DNA from: Massilia rubra
GTDB lineage: Bacteria > Pseudomonadota > Gammaproteobacteria > Burkholderiales > Burkholderiaceae_D
Direction: 5' to 3'
DNA length: 64,000 nucleotides
Assembly (NCBI RefSeq): GCF_011682065.1
Contig: NZ_VUYU01000005.1
Coordinates: 202,484-266,483 of the forward strand
A program made the translations under genes and the position numbers. Positions 24,756 to 43,534 of this stretch are shown one piece after another (the stretch's first letter is position 1; every line of letters begins with the position of its first letter). The notes under the pieces were generated by a model that was not told the origin of the DNA, made no database searches, and saw nothing but the letters and a program-made list of their open reading frames with translations.

Positions 24756-24843
24756 CCCCCGTCATTCCCGCGCAGGCGGGAATCCAATTTTCTATGCGGA
24801 TCGCAGATGCCTTGGATTCCCGCCTGCGCGGGAACGACGGGGT
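24756..24843. repeat. Palindromic intergenic repeat, copy 1
   Basis: Two long inverted arms: a left arm with GTCATTCCCGCGCAGGCGGG and a right arm CCCGCCTGCGCGGGAACGAC, separated by ~25 bases. Each arm is itself a near-palindrome (TCCCGC / GCGGGA). The same element recurs at 31545 and 42858. It lies between the divergent osmC-like and mocR-type genes. Confidence 0.9.
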
Positions 24844-31544: not shown

Positions 31545-31709
31545 AAAACCGTCATTCCCGCCACTGGCAGAAATGACTTCCCGCGCAGGCGGGAATCCAA
31601 GGCCTCTACGCTAAGCGACGGTGCCTTGGATTCCCGCCTGCGCGGGAATGACGGTTTTAAGGTTAACGGGAATGACGGTTTTTACGTTAGCGGGAATGAC
31701 GCTTTTTAA
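31545..31709. repeat. Palindromic intergenic repeat, copy 2, with extra half-elements
   Basis: Left arm CCGTCATTCCCG... and right arm CCCGCCTGCGCGGGAATGAC enclose ~30 bases (31545-31658); the left arm carries an insertion containing a second TGACTTCCCGCG. Two further partial copies (GTTAACGGGAATGACGG near 31662 and GTTAGCGGGAATGACGC near 31686) follow. The element fills the space between the small gene and the convergent PhaM gene. Confidence 0.88.
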
Positions 31710-37888: not shown

Positions 37889-39256
37889 ATGATGGAAACA
37901 ACGGCAGGCGTGGCTGCAGAACCACTGACTTTAGGGCAAGACGACCACGACTCTCTGCAGGCGCACTTTCACGCCGGCATCTCGGCTGACGAGATCGAGC
38001 AAGTCTTTCATTTGAAGCGGGCGCAACCGACCCTGCAAGCGTTCACCGCACTGTTCCACGGCGGCGCCGACGGCGTGTTGATCCGCCTGCTGGTACTGCG
38101 CGAACTGGCGGCCGATACCAGCACCACCGCTTTTTCGCGAGCCGACATCAACCAGAAGCTGGCCTACCTGATTCCCGAAAGCCTGGAAACGGTGCTCACC
38201 CGTCTGCGTTCGCACAGCCTGCTGGCCTGGGACGCCCAGGCCGCCGTGTACCGCGTCACGCCGATGGCGCGCAATGTGCTCTCCTCGCTCGATACCCTGC
38301 TGTCGATGGGCCAGGCCGACGACGACGCCGAGATGGGCTTTTTGCTCTCGCAAGTGGCCGGCGCCCAGGCCGTGGGCGGCGTCACCGTGGAACAGCTCAA
38401 GCACCTGCTGGGGCGCCTGGTCGAACTGACCGAGGAGTTTCGCGATGCGATCGCCTCCGGTTCTGAATTTCGCCTGCGCACCTCGCAAGCGAAGTGGCAC
38501 ATGGCCTGCGACTGGGTCGAGAAGGGCTCCGAGATCCTGCGCGCGATCACCAGCGACGAACGCGCCGATTCGGCCACCCACAAGGCCGCGCAAGCGATCG
38601 GCCGCGCCCAGAGCGCGCTGCTGAACATGCAGGGCATGTTCTCGCGCGCGCTCAATCAGATCGAGCGCCAGCGCGTGCATTTGGGCCAGTCCGGCCTGTC
38701 GACCACGGACGTCAAGCGCTGGCTGCTGGCGCACGACGACTTATCGAGCCTGGCGCATGGCGCGATCGACCGCCCGCTGATGCCGCTGTTCGTCACCCCG
38801 GCCGAAATGATCGACGTGGCCGAAACCGAACTGCTGGCCGAACGCGGCCCCGCTACAGGCCCGGCCGGCCTGCCGCAAGGCGAGGATGCGCCGCTGACGA
38901 TTAACGACGGCCCGGCGATCCAGGCCGAACTCGATGACTGGCTGGCGCGCCTGGCCGACTTTGCCAACCTCGGTAACTTCCCCAGCTTCTCGGAGCACGG
39001 CCCGAAAACGGTGCCGATCCAGGATTCGCTGCTGCCGGCCAGCTTTGCGGTGGCTTCGTACCGCGCCTCCATGCTGCCGCTCCTGGGCGACGCCGCCGAA
39101 GCGAGCCTGCAGGGCGCCACGGCGCAACTGGCGCGCCTGCCGATCACCTTCACGCCCACCGACGAGATGGTGCAGCTGAACGACCCGCACGTATTCGCGA
39201 TGTCGATCGCCACCCTCTCACTTGATCTGGAAAGCGGCCCGGCCGATGATAAATGA
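37889..39256 (+). CDS. Kleisin-like subunit of SMC complex (MksF/JetA-like)
   Basis: First gene of a three-gene condensin-like operon; 455 residues. The N-terminal third (~50-140) looks like a winged-helix domain (TAFSRADINQKLAYLIPESL then ETVLTRLRSHSLLAWD), the middle is long and helical, and the C-terminal part (~300-440) is mixed. By position and layout it corresponds to MksF/JetA-type kleisins that bridge the SMC heads, but sequence identity to any named subunit cannot be judged here. The start is ATG 37889 or the next codon; the upstream GGTACCGG is a poor ribosome binding site. The stop overlaps the next gene by 11 bases. Confidence 0.65.
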   Translation: MMETTAGVAAEPLTLGQDDHDSLQAHFHAGISADEIEQVFHLKRAQPTLQAFTALFHGGADGVLIRLLVLRELAADTSTTAFSRADINQKLAYLIPESLETVLTRLRSHSLLAWDAQAAVYRVTPMARNVLSSLDTLLSMGQADDDAEMGFLLSQVAGAQAVGGVTVEQLKHLLGRLVELTEEFRDAIASGSEFRLRTSQAKWHMACDWVEKGSEILRAITSDERADSATHKAAQAIGRAQSALLNMQGMFSRALNQIERQRVHLGQSGLSTTDVKRWLLAHDDLSSLAHGAIDRPLMPLFVTPAEMIDVAETELLAERGPATGPAGLPQGEDAPLTINDGPAIQAELDDWLARLADFANLGNFPSFSEHGPKTVPIQDSLLPASFAVASYRASMLPLLGDAAEASLQGATAQLARLPITFTPTDEMVQLNDPHVFAMSIATLSLDLESGPADDK

Positions 39257-40025
39257 CGACTCCCAAATCCTGATTGCGCGCCTGCTGACGCATCAGACCC
39301 TGCGCCGCGACGACCGCCTGGTCAAGCGCGTGCTGTCCGATGAACTGTTCCGCGCCGAAGTCGACAAACGCCTGCTCGAATCGGGCCTGAAGTTGCTCGA
39401 CAACGTGTATGCCGACCATGTAACCCTGGCGCTGCACCGGGCGGTGGAACCGAAGATATTCGGCGCCAAGGACATCTGGCAAAACAATAACTTCGGCCTC
39501 ACGCGCGATGGCGTGGCGCTGCTGGTGGTGCTGTGGGCGCAGATCATCCTGCCCAAGCGCGAACGCCAGGAGACCCACCAGAACGCCGCCGACGACCAGA
39601 ACGACCTGTTCGACAAGGACAAGCCGCTGCCGCGCGCGGAAGACACCTCGATCGGCATTTCGTACACCGCGCTGCTGTCGGACTTCGGCGACAAGCTCGG
39701 TAAAAAGACGCGCATGGACATGAACCTGGGCGCGCTCTCGCGCATGGGCTTCATCGAACGGCGCGGCGACGTGATCCTCGAAGGCGCGCTGCTCGACCTG
39801 CTGATGGATACCGACGTGCTCAAGGAACGCATCATCAACGGCGCCCTGGCCGACGTCTTCAAGCGCGCGCCGGTGGTGGCCGTGCCCAAGCCGGTCATGA
39901 GCGAGGCGGCCAACGACGCCGACGCGGTAGCCGACGCCGTAGCCGACAAGGTCACCGACGCCGTCTCGGCCATCCCTATCGAGCCGGCGGCCGATAGTGA
40001 TCCCGCCGCCGATACCCCAACCTGA
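39246..40025 (+). CDS. KITE-like subunit of SMC complex (MksE/JetB-like)
   Basis: Second gene of the operon; 259 residues. It appears to contain two winged-helix units, as in MksE/JetB/MukE proteins: residues ~85-110 (GLTRDGVALLVVLWAQIILP) and ~145-185 (YTALLSDFGDKLGKK then LGALSRMGFIERRGD). The last ~45 residues are an acidic Ala/Asp-rich tail. The start is placed at ATG 39246, overlapping the previous stop by 11 bases; a TTG at 39222 is possible. In known systems this subunit binds the kleisin and DNA. Confidence 0.65.
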   Translation: MINDDSQILIARLLTHQTLRRDDRLVKRVLSDELFRAEVDKRLLESGLKLLDNVYADHVTLALHRAVEPKIFGAKDIWQNNNFGLTRDGVALLVVLWAQIILPKRERQETHQNAADDQNDLFDKDKPLPRAEDTSIGISYTALLSDFGDKLGKKTRMDMNLGALSRMGFIERRGDVILEGALLDLLMDTDVLKERIINGALADVFKRAPVVAVPKPVMSEAANDADAVADAVADKVTDAVSAIPIEPAADSDPAADTPT

Positions 40026-40034
40026 GGCTAGCCC

Positions 40035-42857
40035 ATGTTCCACATTAAATCGCTCGAACTGGTCCACTGGGATTACTGGCAACGGATCAAGAACATCCCG
40101 CTCGACGCCAAGATCATCACCATCGCCGGCCAGAACGGCTCCGGCAAGACCACCTTGCTCGACGCGCTGCGCACCCTGTTCGGCCTCGATTGCTCGATGG
40201 GCCGCACCTACAAGCACTACGCGCGCCACTCCGGCCAGCAGACCGCGTGGATTCGCTCCGTGGTCGACAACAAGGCGGTGGGGCGCCAGTTGTCGAACCG
40301 GCCGTTCCGCAGCTCCGGTTTTTTCAGCGACGATGAAGTCACCCTGTTCTGCAAGATCGAAAAGAACGGCGGCGACTGGAAGCGCCAGTACCTTATGCGT
40401 CCGGGGAATATCCAGATCGAGGAAGTGAGCGACGCCACCGACTGGCTGGGCGTGGAGAACTACCGCAAGCGCCTGCACAACGCCGGCCTGTCGCCGGCCA
40501 TGGCCAAGGTGCTGGCGCTGGAGCAGGGCGAAACCGACAAGCTGTGCGAATACGCGCCGCGCCAGTTGCTCGACCTGGTGTTCCAGGTCTTCGGCGACAA
40601 GGAAGTGCTGGACGCCTACGACGAAGCCAAGCGCCATCAGCGCGACACCGAAACGGAACTGAAACGCTTCGAAACCGAGTTGGAAGCCTCGCGCACCAAC
40701 CTGGAAGGCCTGCGCCTGCGCGTGGCCAATTACCACCAGTGGGAAGACCTGCACAAGGAACGCCGCAACTTGCTGGAAGAAGTGCTGCCGAGCCTCGAAT
40801 ACCACGAAGCGCGCGAAAAGGCGGGCAACGCCAGCCGCGCGCTGCGCGAAGCCCGCAAACCGATGGCGCAAGCCGACACGCAGCTGATCGAAAAGCGCAA
40901 CGCGGTCGCCGCGCAGGCAAAAGCGCTGTCGGACGCGCAGCAGCAGGAGACCTTGCTGGAGCAGGAAGCGACCGCCCTGGGCAGCCGCCTCACGCAAGTG
41001 AACGCCAAACTCAAACCGCTCGACAGCCTGCTCGAACAGAAGGAGCGCCTGCAAAAGCTGGCTGCCGATTCCGGGGCCGACATCGCCGAAGTAGCGGCCC
41101 AGCTGGACCAGAAAGAAGCCGAACTGACGCGCCAGCGCCTGGCGCGCGATGCGCTGGCCAGCCGCATCCTGACCGAAAAGTCGACCATCTCGGCCTTGCA
41201 GGGCAAGACCGCCATGCCCGAGCCGGACGCCGTGCGCGCCATGCGCCGCGCCTTGCGCGACGACGGCATCCCGCACGCGATGCTGTCCGATATCGTCGAA
41301 GTGACCGACCCCAAATGGCAGGGCGCGGTCGAAGGTGTGCTGGGCGGGTATGCCTCAGTGGTGCTGCTCGAACGTCCCAAGGATGCGGCGGCCGCCTACC
41401 GGCTGGCCGAGAAGGAGCGCTATCGCCACTTCATCGTCCCCGAGTGCATCAAGGCGCCCGTGACGAAAGACGACAGCCTGCTGTCGGTGGTGCGTTTTTC
41501 GGCCGCCGCTCCGCAATGGCTGATCGACCAGCTGGCGCGCATCGAGCGTGTCGATTCGGTGGAAAAGGGCTTCAAGCTGCACCGCGACGCCGAGTGGATC
41601 ACGCCGGACGCGTATCACCGCGAACGGCGCGGCGGACGTTCGCTGTTCGTGGAAGTATCGCGCTACCGCTTCGGCACAGCCGGCCGCGGCCAGCGTATGG
41701 AAGCGCTGCAAAAGTCGCTGCCGGCACTGGAAGCGCAGGAAGACGCGCTCACCATCACCGTCAGTAAACTCGCCTCGGAAGTGGGCGCGCTCAAGGCCCG
41801 CATCGCCGGTGTCGACGCAGCCAAGGAACTGGCCGCGCGCCAGGCGGAATTCGACGAAGCGCTGCGCAGCACCGTGCCGCTCAAGGCCGAACGCATGGAC
41901 GTGGGCACGCGCCTGGGCGAATTGCAGGCGCTGACCAAAGCGGCCACGGTGGCGCGCACGCGCGCCGACACGGTATGGCAGAACGCGCGCATGACCCTGT
42001 CGGAGGCCGAAGCCGGCCTGCGGCTCGGTCACAAGCGCCAGATCGAACAGCGCGCCGACCATGCGCGCGCGCTGCTGGACTTGCGGCGCGCCTGGCGCCA
42101 TCTACCGCAAGGCTGGCGCCGACTGGCGCGGCGCGCGGCGCTGGTGGCCGAACACCAGAATGCGCACCAGGTCGACCTGCGCGTGTCCTCGCTCGAACAC
42201 AGCCTGGCGCGCGACGACTGGGAGTTGGACGCCACGGTCATCGACCAGCATCACCGCCTGAACGAGCAGTTGCAGGGCCGCCAGACCGAGACCGACGAAC
42301 GGCGCTACCAGAACAACCGCGCGATCGACGCGACCGCGAATGCGCGTGGCGCGTACATCGAGCGGCTGCGCTACACCATCAAGACCTACAGCAAGAACAT
42401 CAAGGAGCTGGGGGAACTGGCGGGGATCGAAGTGCATGCCGACCCGGTCAAGCTGGAGAACGAAGACGTGCAGTTGTCGCAGGCTGGCCTGCACGTACGC
42501 TTCAAGTTCGACGGCAAGGACCAGATCGGGATGAACGACGGCGAAGCGTCGGGCGGACAGCAGGTGATGAAGTCGCTGGTGTTGCTGATTGGTTTGCTCA
42601 AATCCGAAGATGGGTCGGGCGGGTTTGTGTTTATCGACGAACCGTTTGCGCACCTCGATATCCGGAATATCCAGCTGGTGGGCGAGTTCCTCAAGAACAC
42701 CGAGGCGCAGTATCTGATGACGACGCCGCTGACGCACAACACGGACGTGTACGACCCGTCGGAGCTGACGCTCATTACCAGCAAGAAGAAGAAGGATATG
42801 CCATGGGCGCAGCCGATTTTCGTGCTGCAGCGGCGTGTGACGCCGGCGGTGGCCTAA
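40035..42857 (+). CDS. SMC-like ATPase of a condensin-type complex (MksB/JetC-like)
   Basis: SMC-family ATPase, 940 residues. Walker A GQNGSGKT is at 32-39; long coiled coils run about 190-390 and 550-790; a hinge-like globular part lies between (~400-530, with PKWQGAVEGVLGGYASVVLL); the C-terminal head has an ABC signature of the form ASGGQQ (838-843) and Walker B FVFIDEP (864-870) followed by AHLD. All ATPase motifs are intact. The gene begins nine bases after the previous stop. Such ATPases load on DNA and extrude loops, either for chromosome organisation (MksB) or plasmid defence (JetC). No JetD/MksG nuclease gene follows. Confidence 0.85.
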   Translation: MFHIKSLELVHWDYWQRIKNIPLDAKIITIAGQNGSGKTTLLDALRTLFGLDCSMGRTYKHYARHSGQQTAWIRSVVDNKAVGRQLSNRPFRSSGFFSDDEVTLFCKIEKNGGDWKRQYLMRPGNIQIEEVSDATDWLGVENYRKRLHNAGLSPAMAKVLALEQGETDKLCEYAPRQLLDLVFQVFGDKEVLDAYDEAKRHQRDTETELKRFETELEASRTNLEGLRLRVANYHQWEDLHKERRNLLEEVLPSLEYHEAREKAGNASRALREARKPMAQADTQLIEKRNAVAAQAKALSDAQQQETLLEQEATALGSRLTQVNAKLKPLDSLLEQKERLQKLAADSGADIAEVAAQLDQKEAELTRQRLARDALASRILTEKSTISALQGKTAMPEPDAVRAMRRALRDDGIPHAMLSDIVEVTDPKWQGAVEGVLGGYASVVLLERPKDAAAAYRLAEKERYRHFIVPECIKAPVTKDDSLLSVVRFSAAAPQWLIDQLARIERVDSVEKGFKLHRDAEWITPDAYHRERRGGRSLFVEVSRYRFGTAGRGQRMEALQKSLPALEAQEDALTITVSKLASEVGALKARIAGVDAAKELAARQAEFDEALRSTVPLKAERMDVGTRLGELQALTKAATVARTRADTVWQNARMTLSEAEAGLRLGHKRQIEQRADHARALLDLRRAWRHLPQGWRRLARRAALVAEHQNAHQVDLRVSSLEHSLARDDWELDATVIDQHHRLNEQLQGRQTETDERRYQNNRAIDATANARGAYIERLRYTIKTYSKNIKELGELAGIEVHADPVKLENEDVQLSQAGLHVRFKFDGKDQIGMNDGEASGGQQVMKSLVLLIGLLKSEDGSGGFVFIDEPFAHLDIRNIQLVGEFLKNTEAQYLMTTPLTHNTDVYDPSELTLITSKKKKDMPWAQPIFVLQRRVTPAVA

Positions 42858-42942
42858 CGTCGTTCCCGCGCAGGCGGGAACCCAAGTTTTCAGATCTGCC
42901 GCTGAATGAAGAACTTGGGTTCCCGCCTGCGCGGGAACGACG
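42858..42942. repeat. Palindromic intergenic repeat, copy 3
   Basis: Left arm CGTCGTTCCCGCGCAGGCGG and right arm CCGCCTGCGCGGGAACGACG flank ~30 bases. It begins directly after the SMC stop codon and is followed by a 21-bp tandem array made from its own right end. Confidence 0.92.
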
Positions 42943-43026
42943 GAGCTAGCGGCGGGAACGACGGAGCTAGCGGCGGGAACGACGGAGCTAGCGGCGGGAA
43001 CGACGGAGCTAGCGGCGGGAACGACG
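42943..43026. repeat. Four exact copies of a 21-bp unit
   Basis: Unit GAGCTAGCGGCGGGAACGACG repeated four times without a mismatch (42943-43026). The second half of the unit, GCGGGAACGACG, is the end of the adjacent palindromic element. The array stops one base before the stop codon of the membrane-protein gene on the other strand. Confidence 0.97.
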
Positions 43027-43027
43027 G

Positions 43028-43534
43028 TTACGCCGCGTTGATTTCCTTCTTCAACGCCCGGCGCCAGCGGATCAAGCCCGCAGAATAGGTTCCGAAATAC
43101 CCCGCCGTCAGCCCCAGCGCGAGAAGCGTGATGAAGCTGTCGGTGAATCCCGGCGTCGGCACGTTGCTGCCCTGGTTCGCATAAATCTCCACCCCGATAT
43201 ACATCACCCTTGCGAAAAACAGCATCGCAATGACTATCCCCAGACGCGCATTCGGCGTGAAGTAGCAGGTGTCGTTTTCGAACCTGGTCAGCTTGAGCCC
43301 CCAGATTCCGTACGCGATGCCGGCCGCCGTGCCCACGGCCAGCCAGCCCAGGAGCGGCAAACGTGTCATCACCTCCGACCCGGCCACCAGGATCATCGCC
43401 GCGAACACGCCCAGCCCCGTGTAATGGCGCGAGACGATCGAGCGCTGGCGCATCATCATGGCCTTGAGGCGCTGGTAAAAGCGCCACACCAGAAAGGGGG
43501 CGAGCACCAGCAGTGCGATAGTGGTAATTGACAT
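43028..43534 (-). CDS. Integral membrane protein, hypothetical
   Basis: Small inner-membrane protein of 168 residues with about five hydrophobic segments (TTIALLVLAPFLVWRFY, GVFAAMILVAG, LLGWLAVGTAAGIAYG, LGIVIAMLFFARVMY, FITLLALGLTAGYFG). The layout and Arg-rich first loop recall CcdC/DUF1453-type proteins, but I am not certain. It is convergent with the SMC operon and divergent from the peptidase gene. Nothing links it to either. Confidence 0.65.
   Translation of the reverse strand: MSITTIALLVLAPFLVWRFYQRLKAMMMRQRSIVSRHYTGLGVFAAMILVAGSEVMTRLPLLGWLAVGTAAGIAYGIWGLKLTRFENDTCYFTPNARLGIVIAMLFFARVMYIGVEIYANQGSNVPTPGFTDSFITLLALGLTAGYFGTYSAGLIRWRRALKKEINAA

Follow-up and report, generated by a model that had tools for sequence, protein, structure and literature searches.

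A nuclease-less SMC operon of Massilia rubra from a divergent Wadjet/MksBEF-type family: a probable chromosomal condensin

The three-gene operon

The stretch of Massilia rubra DNA analysed here (64,000 nucleotides of contig NZ_VUYU01000005.1, positions 202,484 to 266,483 of the forward strand; hereafter the window) contains three adjacent open reading frames (ORFs) on the plus strand, g1, g2 and g3, the last of which encodes an ATPase of the structural maintenance of chromosomes (SMC) type. These genes are as tightly packed as a first-pass annotation of the window had described, with an overlap of 11 nt between g1 and g2 and a gap of 9 nt between g2 and g3. The same annotation had pointed out that a nuclease partner is missing from the operon, and indeed no fourth same-strand gene comes after g3, which is followed by a palindromic repeat and then by a convergent gene. 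We consider it probable that the operon encodes a nuclease-less kleisin-KITE-SMC complex of the Wadjet/MksBEF superfamily, most likely an extra condensin that organises the chromosome. The genes are:

37889..39256, plus strand: g1, 455 amino acids, predicted kleisin
39246..40025, plus strand: g2, 259 amino acids counted from the ATG at 39246, predicted KITE subunit (the mechanically called ORF begins upstream, with a TTG at 39222)
40035..42857, plus strand: g3, 940 amino acids, SMC ATPase of the JetC/MksB type

All three genes occur together in each of 80 near loci (the best 80 of 219 relative-encoding stretches found among genome contigs, some of them cut short). The same holds for every locus of a second set of 62, 14 of which are also among the 80. 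The near loci come mostly from Massilia, Duganella, Janthinobacterium and their kin, with 81-99% identity, and synteny extends to the convergent downstream gene in 70 of them. The ratio of nonsynonymous to synonymous substitution rates (dN/dS), calculated between the window and seven relatives, lies between 0.04 and 0.29 for all three genes. From the joint occurrence in both locus sets and these ratios it follows that the operon is not a product of chance; its three genes are real and under purifying selection.

Products of the operon

The g3 product is recognised by the Pfam models SMC_N (E 5e-13) and AAA_21 (E 4e-14), with AAA_29 also above its cut-off and SMC_hinge just below it (E 0.0011, residues 415-485). 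The ATPase motifs that the first-pass annotation had reported as intact in this 940-residue protein could all be located, together with a hinge region that is delimited by the Pfam SMC_hinge, 4rsj and JetC hinge matches:

40128..40154, plus strand: Walker A motif GQNGSGKTT, residues 32-40, intact
41217..41834, plus strand: hinge region, approximately residues 395-600
42546..42563, plus strand: ATP-binding cassette (ABC) signature ASGGQQ, residues 838-843
42624..42644, plus strand: Walker B motif FVFIDEP, residues 864-870, intact

Residues G32 and N34-D43 are invariant across the 27 aligned rows. The signature does read ASGGQQ instead of LSGGQ, as had been remarked earlier, but this is no anomaly: 27 of 27 aligned relatives share it, and it is therefore a trait of the family and not an oddity of the window copy. 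The Smc entry 4rsj of the PDB aligns to positions 345-587 of the g3 profile, and the SMC matches as a whole suggest that g3 also has coiled-coil arms.

Within the SMC proteins, g3 matches the PADLOC JetC model (E 2e-19) and reaches 99.4% with JetC and 79% with MukB in profile-profile comparison. With a profile of the g3 hinge, the scores of two JetC proteins are 22.7 and 22.6 bits (best shuffle 2.9) and that of the JetC encoded elsewhere in the same genome is 13.2 bits, neither the genome's own Smc nor MukB being among its matches. The N-terminal head profile scores 18.3-21.5 for JetC, 16.9 for the Smc of the same genome and 14.4 for MukB, and comparison of the C-terminal head segment does not discriminate. 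On the strength of the JetC profile comparison and of the hinge and N-terminal head scores g3 appears JetC/MksB-like, which supports its assignment as an SMC ATPase of this type. MukB itself was rejected as an identity for g3, the Pfam MukB N-terminal model giving 15.2 bits against a cut-off of 23. Matches to the Lamassu protein LmuB are weak (best 4e-13) and no PADLOC match was found in the two flanking genes scanned, so no LmuA effector is present there. A phage search for relatives of this SMC returned none at 1e-10.

The assignment of g2 comes from its fold. Its AlphaFold2 model, built from a 27-row alignment (predicted local distance difference test, pLDDT, 67; predicted template modelling score, pTM, 0.52), consists of two winged helices linked by a long helix. 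At E <= 0.001 Foldseek finds three chains in the PDB, each from a JetABC entry (8dk1_E, 8as8_C and 8dk1_F; E 1.5e-4 to 4.6e-4, with a TM-score of 0.58-0.61 when normalised by target length), of which 8dk1_E and 8as8_C are JetB by chain name. ScpB, Nse1-Nse3-Nse4, MAGE-G1/NSE-1 and ScpAB entries make up the next five (E 0.007-0.036), and the eight best matches are all KITE-containing entries (the last five by entry, not by chain), with unrelated proteins from rank 9. This fold supports a provisional identification of g2 as a KITE subunit. Searches of Pfam, NCBIfam and PADLOC with g2 gave only a chance-level methionine adenosyltransferase model (E 0.2 and 0.08), and a profile search of the PDB nothing meaningful.

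The AlphaFold2 model of g1 (pLDDT 76, pTM 0.38) combines a winged helix and long helices with a winged-helix-like end at the C terminus, an architecture like that of MukF and JetA. Foldseek found no match at E <= 0.001; its top three were 3rpu (a MukE-MukF entry) and the MukBEF entries 9gm7 and 9gm9, at E 0.03-0.055, with MukF at rank 8 (1t98, chain 1t98_A) and JetA at rank 14 (8q72_E), both checked by chain name. No family was matched in Pfam, NCBIfam or PADLOC at E up to 1; the PDB profile search led from g1 to a transcriptional regulator over the first winged helix only (E 0.0017), and a two-sequence alignment of JetA with g1 was uninformative. A kleisin identity of g1 is plausible, if weak. 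The labels of both g1 and g2 are provisional, because their fold matches come without sequence homology and those of g1 are not significant. The SMC-kleisin-KITE composition claimed in the first-pass annotation thus holds by sequence for the SMC and by a moderate-confidence model fold for the KITE subunit, and is plausible by fold for the kleisin (best Foldseek E 0.03). In two distant loci, L106 and L111, g1 has a weak PADLOC JukB match over its helical part (E 8e-5 and 0.002).

Distribution and other SMC systems of the genome

The genome (7.57 Mb, 118 contigs) carries one copy of the operon. It also encodes a canonical Smc (contig C23, 1101 bits), ScpA and ScpB, and on contig C57 (L136:9257-15880) a complete jetABCD operon with strong matches to the PADLOC type I models, which supports the earlier proposal that the window operon is the third SMC system of this genome. 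The jetD on C57 was rejected as the partner of the window operon since it belongs to a complete JetABCD set of its own, although an action in trans is still conceivable.

In a sample of 195 genomes of the family, the SMC gene is present in 103, always as one copy, and in 18 of 40 genera; its identity to the window copy declines in a gradient from 100 to 68%, followed by a gap to 46-44%. Every sampled genome is positive in seven genera (genus labels g1, 15/15; g3, 14/14; g96, 14/14; g124, 13/13; g116, 12/12; g95, 4/4; g126, 4/4), which a hand count puts at 76 of 76 genomes, these genera having been chosen after the fact for their completeness. Presence is patchy in genera g108 (6/13), g114 (4/5), g111 (8/13), g107 (2/13), g100 (1/4) and g101 (1/5), and five further genera have one positive genome each by hand count. 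At wider range the SMC was found in 24 of 150 genomes of an order sample and in two of 370 genomes of a class sample, the own genome and G655. The KITE profile is matched at full length by these same two genomes only, both in the class sample and in a phylum sample of 170 genomes; a third match in the class sample (37 positions, E 0.008, interrupted frame) was disregarded. These counts indicate a family largely confined to the order of the window, Burkholderiales judging by the named near relatives. ScpA is present in 193 of the 195 family genomes, and the operon therefore represents an additional complex and not a replacement of Smc-ScpAB.

A JetD-type nuclease gene in distant relatives

A nuclease homolog follows the SMC gene in 12 distant loci (L106, L110, L111, L112, L166-L170 and L187-L189), that of L112 being cut by the contig end. 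A plasmid search added two Variovorax records (L161/L162) with partial SMC matches that end near IS1071 transposase genes. On the Variovorax RA8 plasmid, the end of the SMC gene overlaps by 4 nt a nuclease gene whose 393-amino-acid product is matched weakly by DUF2399 (E 0.006) and by a Topo VI TOPRIM model (E 0.08); genes annotated xseA and xseB come after it. Nine aligned nuclease proteins share invariant ENR and DxDPAG motifs, which we take to be those of a TOPRIM domain, and PADLOC JetD models match all seven of the nine that were scanned (best E 6e-18 to 1e-10). The best result of five nuclease-bearing relatives against the PADLOC JetA and JetB models was a JetB match at E 0.007 in one of them.

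The nuclease profile detects seven of 195 genomes of the family sample (7/103 with the SMC versus 0/92 without it) and four of 150 of the order sample (4/24 versus 0/126), and G655 also carries an adjacent nuclease. None is adjacent to the operon in the 80 near loci (E 0.001, nine queries), 75 of which extend 1.5 kb or more beyond the SMC gene, nor in the seven complete genera, and the own genome gives no match to the profile at 1e-6. As nuclease-bearing relatives do exist, lack of the nuclease characterises the clade. In L165, a 41-codon stretch resembling the nuclease start (L165:10709-10831) is separated by about 30 bp from the end of an intact SMC gene and is best read as a remnant of nuclease decay; L163 and L164, from the same genus, have no nuclease trace. 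Second nuclease matches on another contig were seen in G045 (weak, E 2e-14) and in G125 (strong, possibly the rest of a cut gene).

Comparison with known systems

Like the window operon, whose kleisin is provisional, MksBEF of Pseudomonas aeruginosa is an SMC-kleisin-KITE system without a nuclease that exists alongside Smc-ScpAB; its gene order and SMC size are presumably similar too. This likeness is one of composition. Neither g1 nor g2 is recognised by a library model, and the g2 profile finds few members in the class sample, which may or may not include Pseudomonas. MksBEF families were reportedly defined by Petrushenko in 2011. One account of the P. aeruginosa complex describes a dual role in chromosome packing and segregation and mentions several distantly related MksBEF families (PMC7485682).

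Type I Wadjet (JetABCD/MksBEFG) shares with the window operon the order kleisin-KITE-SMC, a JetB that is the best fold match of g2 and a hinge to which that of g3 is similar, and its fourth gene, the JetD-type TOPRIM nuclease, is present in relatives of the operon. The window operon differs in that the nuclease is missing, neither g1 nor g2 gives a PADLOC JetA or JetB match, the SMC is shorter (940 amino acids versus 1152 for the JetC of the same genome) and the neighbours, as read, are not defence genes. With MukBEF of Escherichia coli the operon has in common the gene order (mukFEB) and the best fold matches of g1, which are MukF and MukBEF entries; however, the MukB model stays below its cut-off for g3. 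Moreover, MukBEF apparently replaced Smc-ScpAB in its hosts, according to a review (PMC10586767), whereas the window operon coexists with it. Smc-ScpAB itself has the same SMC-kleisin-KITE composition but is a separate set in this genome, and g3 scores far below the cut-off of the Smc model.

Proposed function and origin

In MukBEF, MksBEF and Wadjet, DNA is entrapped and reeled in by ATP-driven steps, and the Wadjet motor measures circular DNA for JetD to cut; the same motor without JetD could organise DNA. By analogy with these relatives, two SMC subunits would join at the hinge, the kleisin would bridge the ATPase heads and a KITE dimer would sit on the kleisin, with ATP cycles driving DNA entrapment and loop extrusion. 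In the sister operons a JetD-type TOPRIM nuclease would cut the circular DNA reeled in by the motor. Since the window operon has no nuclease gene, its complex would act without cutting, beside Smc-ScpAB, and a chromosomal function may be expected. The operon would then belong, as a member without a nuclease, to a divergent family of the Wadjet/MksBEF type; it is probably a chromosomal condensin and possibly became one by nuclease loss, a route also proposed for the MksBEF of Pseudomonas.

With regard to the direction of change, an SMC tree of 63 rows (quick method, midpoint root for drawing) places nuclease-bearing rows on both sides of the root. Rows without the nuclease are the 30 of the window clade, 17 distant ones that form a clade of their own, and L198. 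SMC distances between loci go together with nuclease distances: r is 0.851 for 11 loci, a value reached in none of 2000 permutations, and 0.68 for six spread-out loci (without permutation). An early presence of the nuclease followed by repeated loss is the reading that we prefer, and gain may also have occurred. Still more tentatively, we propose that a Burkholderiales-centred Wadjet-like lineage that lies outside the model libraries shed its cutting subunit and gave rise, independently of the Pseudomonas MksBEF, to a chromosomal condensin kept throughout several genera. Just as tentatively, living relatives would preserve the stages of this process: four genes, a nuclease stub, three genes in patchy distribution and three genes fixed.

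Several observations weigh against one or another part of this interpretation. The patchiness in genera g108, g111 and g107 and the absence from 22 of 40 genera are unlike a housekeeping gene. Concerning the subunits, MarR-type regulators are interspersed among the MukF matches of g1, which has no significant match and a pTM of 0.38, and hhalign comparison of g1 and g2 with JetA, JetB, MukF and MukE gives at most 2% probability, that is, no sequence homology. As for the nuclease, just one of seven proteins (L111) passes the Pfam DUF2399 cut-off and three of the seven lack a relevant Pfam match, and comparison of the nuclease profile with the PDB found no JetD chain and nothing meaningful. The position of the SMC tree root is arbitrary (midpoint) and several branches are long, the support of 94 for the 17-row nuclease-less clade is not starred and not strong, and the quick trees of nuclease and SMC are not fully congruent. 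Finally, between L166/L167 and L187/L188, all from one genus, the nucleases differ by 48% and the adjacent SMCs by 7%, from which it follows that nucleases have been exchanged or replaced by recombination and could also have been gained.

The most serious alternative, which we nonetheless think unlikely, is that the three-gene condensin is ancestral and that some lineages acquired the JetD-type nuclease, in which case no defence past is needed. Absence of the nuclease from 96 of 103 SMC-positive genomes of the family sample and 20 of 24 of the order sample would fit this scenario, as would the nuclease exchange within a genus and the incongruent trees. It accounts less well for nuclease-bearing members on both sides of the midpoint, for the correlated distances and for the truncated remnant, which points to at least one loss.

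A function in active defence without cutting, by silencing or blocking incoming DNA, or with an unrelated nuclease recruited in trans, seems more unlikely again. The closest functional kin of the operon are Wadjet systems, its presence is patchy in several genera, its own genome holds a JetD in a separate Wadjet, and JetD_C matches are commoner in SMC-positive than in SMC-negative genomes of the family sample (28/103 versus 9/92, uncorrected for shared ancestry). However, 68 of the 96 SMC-positive genomes without an adjacent nuclease have no JetD_C match. JetD in trans is hence not a general requirement, and recruitment of a nuclease from elsewhere, which the first-pass annotation had entertained, finds no support as a general rule for JetD-type nucleases, although nucleases of other types might be involved. 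The presence of the operon in every sampled member of seven genera and the conservation of its chromosomal neighbours also speak for a chromosomal role, and the JetD_C enrichment ignores shared ancestry. Cupriavidus necator, another member of the Burkholderiales, offers a cautionary case in its type III Wadjet. Deletion of that system is reported to have changed neither electroporation nor the stability of the plasmid tested (PMC12645576).

It is quite improbable that g1 and g2 are neither kleisin nor KITE and that the SMC acts on its own in repair, as an ATPase of the RecN/Rad50 kind. Such a reading could invoke the lack of any sequence model for g1 or g2 and the non-significant fold matches of g1, but would leave unexplained why KITE entries head the fold matches of g2, why g1 has a winged helix-helix-winged helix architecture with MukF/MukBEF entries first, why the gene order equals that of jetABC and mukFEB and why the three genes stay together in all loci of both overlapping sets. 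A canonical Smc paralogue can practically be dismissed and was rejected as an identity for g3, because the TIGR02168 match (E 5e-22) scores 77.5 bits against a cut-off of 567.35, the true Smc is encoded on contig C23 and the g3 hinge profile fits JetC and not the own Smc.

Novelty and significance

A complex of the MksBEF/Wadjet superfamily is of a known kind. What appears to be new is a family whose kleisin and KITE subunits are covered by no library model, its nuclease-bearing relatives and a nuclease-less form fixed in several genera. Literature searched by title and abstract yielded no paper describing this family, which the 2011 definition of the MksBEF families may list. A review that calls the origins unresolved proposes that MksBEF, and perhaps MukBEF, arose from plasmid-cutting Wadjet-type systems (PMC10586767). 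The four-gene, degraded, patchy three-gene and fixed three-gene forms of the present family constitute a natural series in tractable environmental bacteria, and thereby a natural experiment on the possible turning of defence machines into chromosome organisers, in which one can ask whether absence of the nuclease shifts the site of action of the motor. The analysis also brings out that the kleisin and KITE subunits of this four-gene Wadjet-like system escape the PADLOC profiles that were used, and that three different SMC operons or gene sets of this general kind can coexist in a single genome.

Genomic surroundings

Downstream of g3, the window contains the following features:

42859..42941, no strand: palindromic dispersed repeat, directly after the g3 stop codon
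42931..43027, no strand: 21-bp tandem repeat, 4.6 copies, which overlaps the palindrome (together they span 42859-43027)
43028..43534, minus strand: convergent neighbour gene, 168 amino acids, outside the complex

The palindrome, of type GGGTTCCCGCCTGCGCGGGAACGAC, has further copies in the window at 24761-24838 and 31628-31652; it is thus a dispersed repeat, and was rejected as an element specific to the operon. The convergent product has no Pfam match. A search of Rfam at the gathering threshold found no match, and a scan for promoters and terminators no more than in shuffled sequences.

Among the near loci, an S9 peptidase gene is present in 41. The largest cluster of upstream ORFs, which mixes overlapping frames, is represented in 68, and the three upstream genes of the window in just two or three of the 80. 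Two upstream genes of L010 are DUF3108. The gene obgE lies directly upstream in L118 (Pfam) and L108 (by eye), and a single gene separates it from the operon in L109 and L120 (by eye). The neighbour of g1 in L183-L186 is a divergently oriented gene for a ParA/MinD-type ATPase (by Pfam in L183), beyond which panC and scpA follow within a few kb, and in at least seven genomes of genera g108 and g114 scpA is, by coordinates, less than 8 kb from the SMC gene. As far as the neighbours were read, the settings of the operon are chromosomal and not defence islands.

The operon itself is interrupted in some loci. Four of these loci have GNAT acetyltransferase genes inserted at differing positions (L108 and L118 by Pfam, L109 and L124 by eye), and an ORF of 218-227 amino acids lies between g1 and g2 in L117 (L117:3884-4540) and L120 (L120:4263-4946), that of L120 being without a Pfam match.

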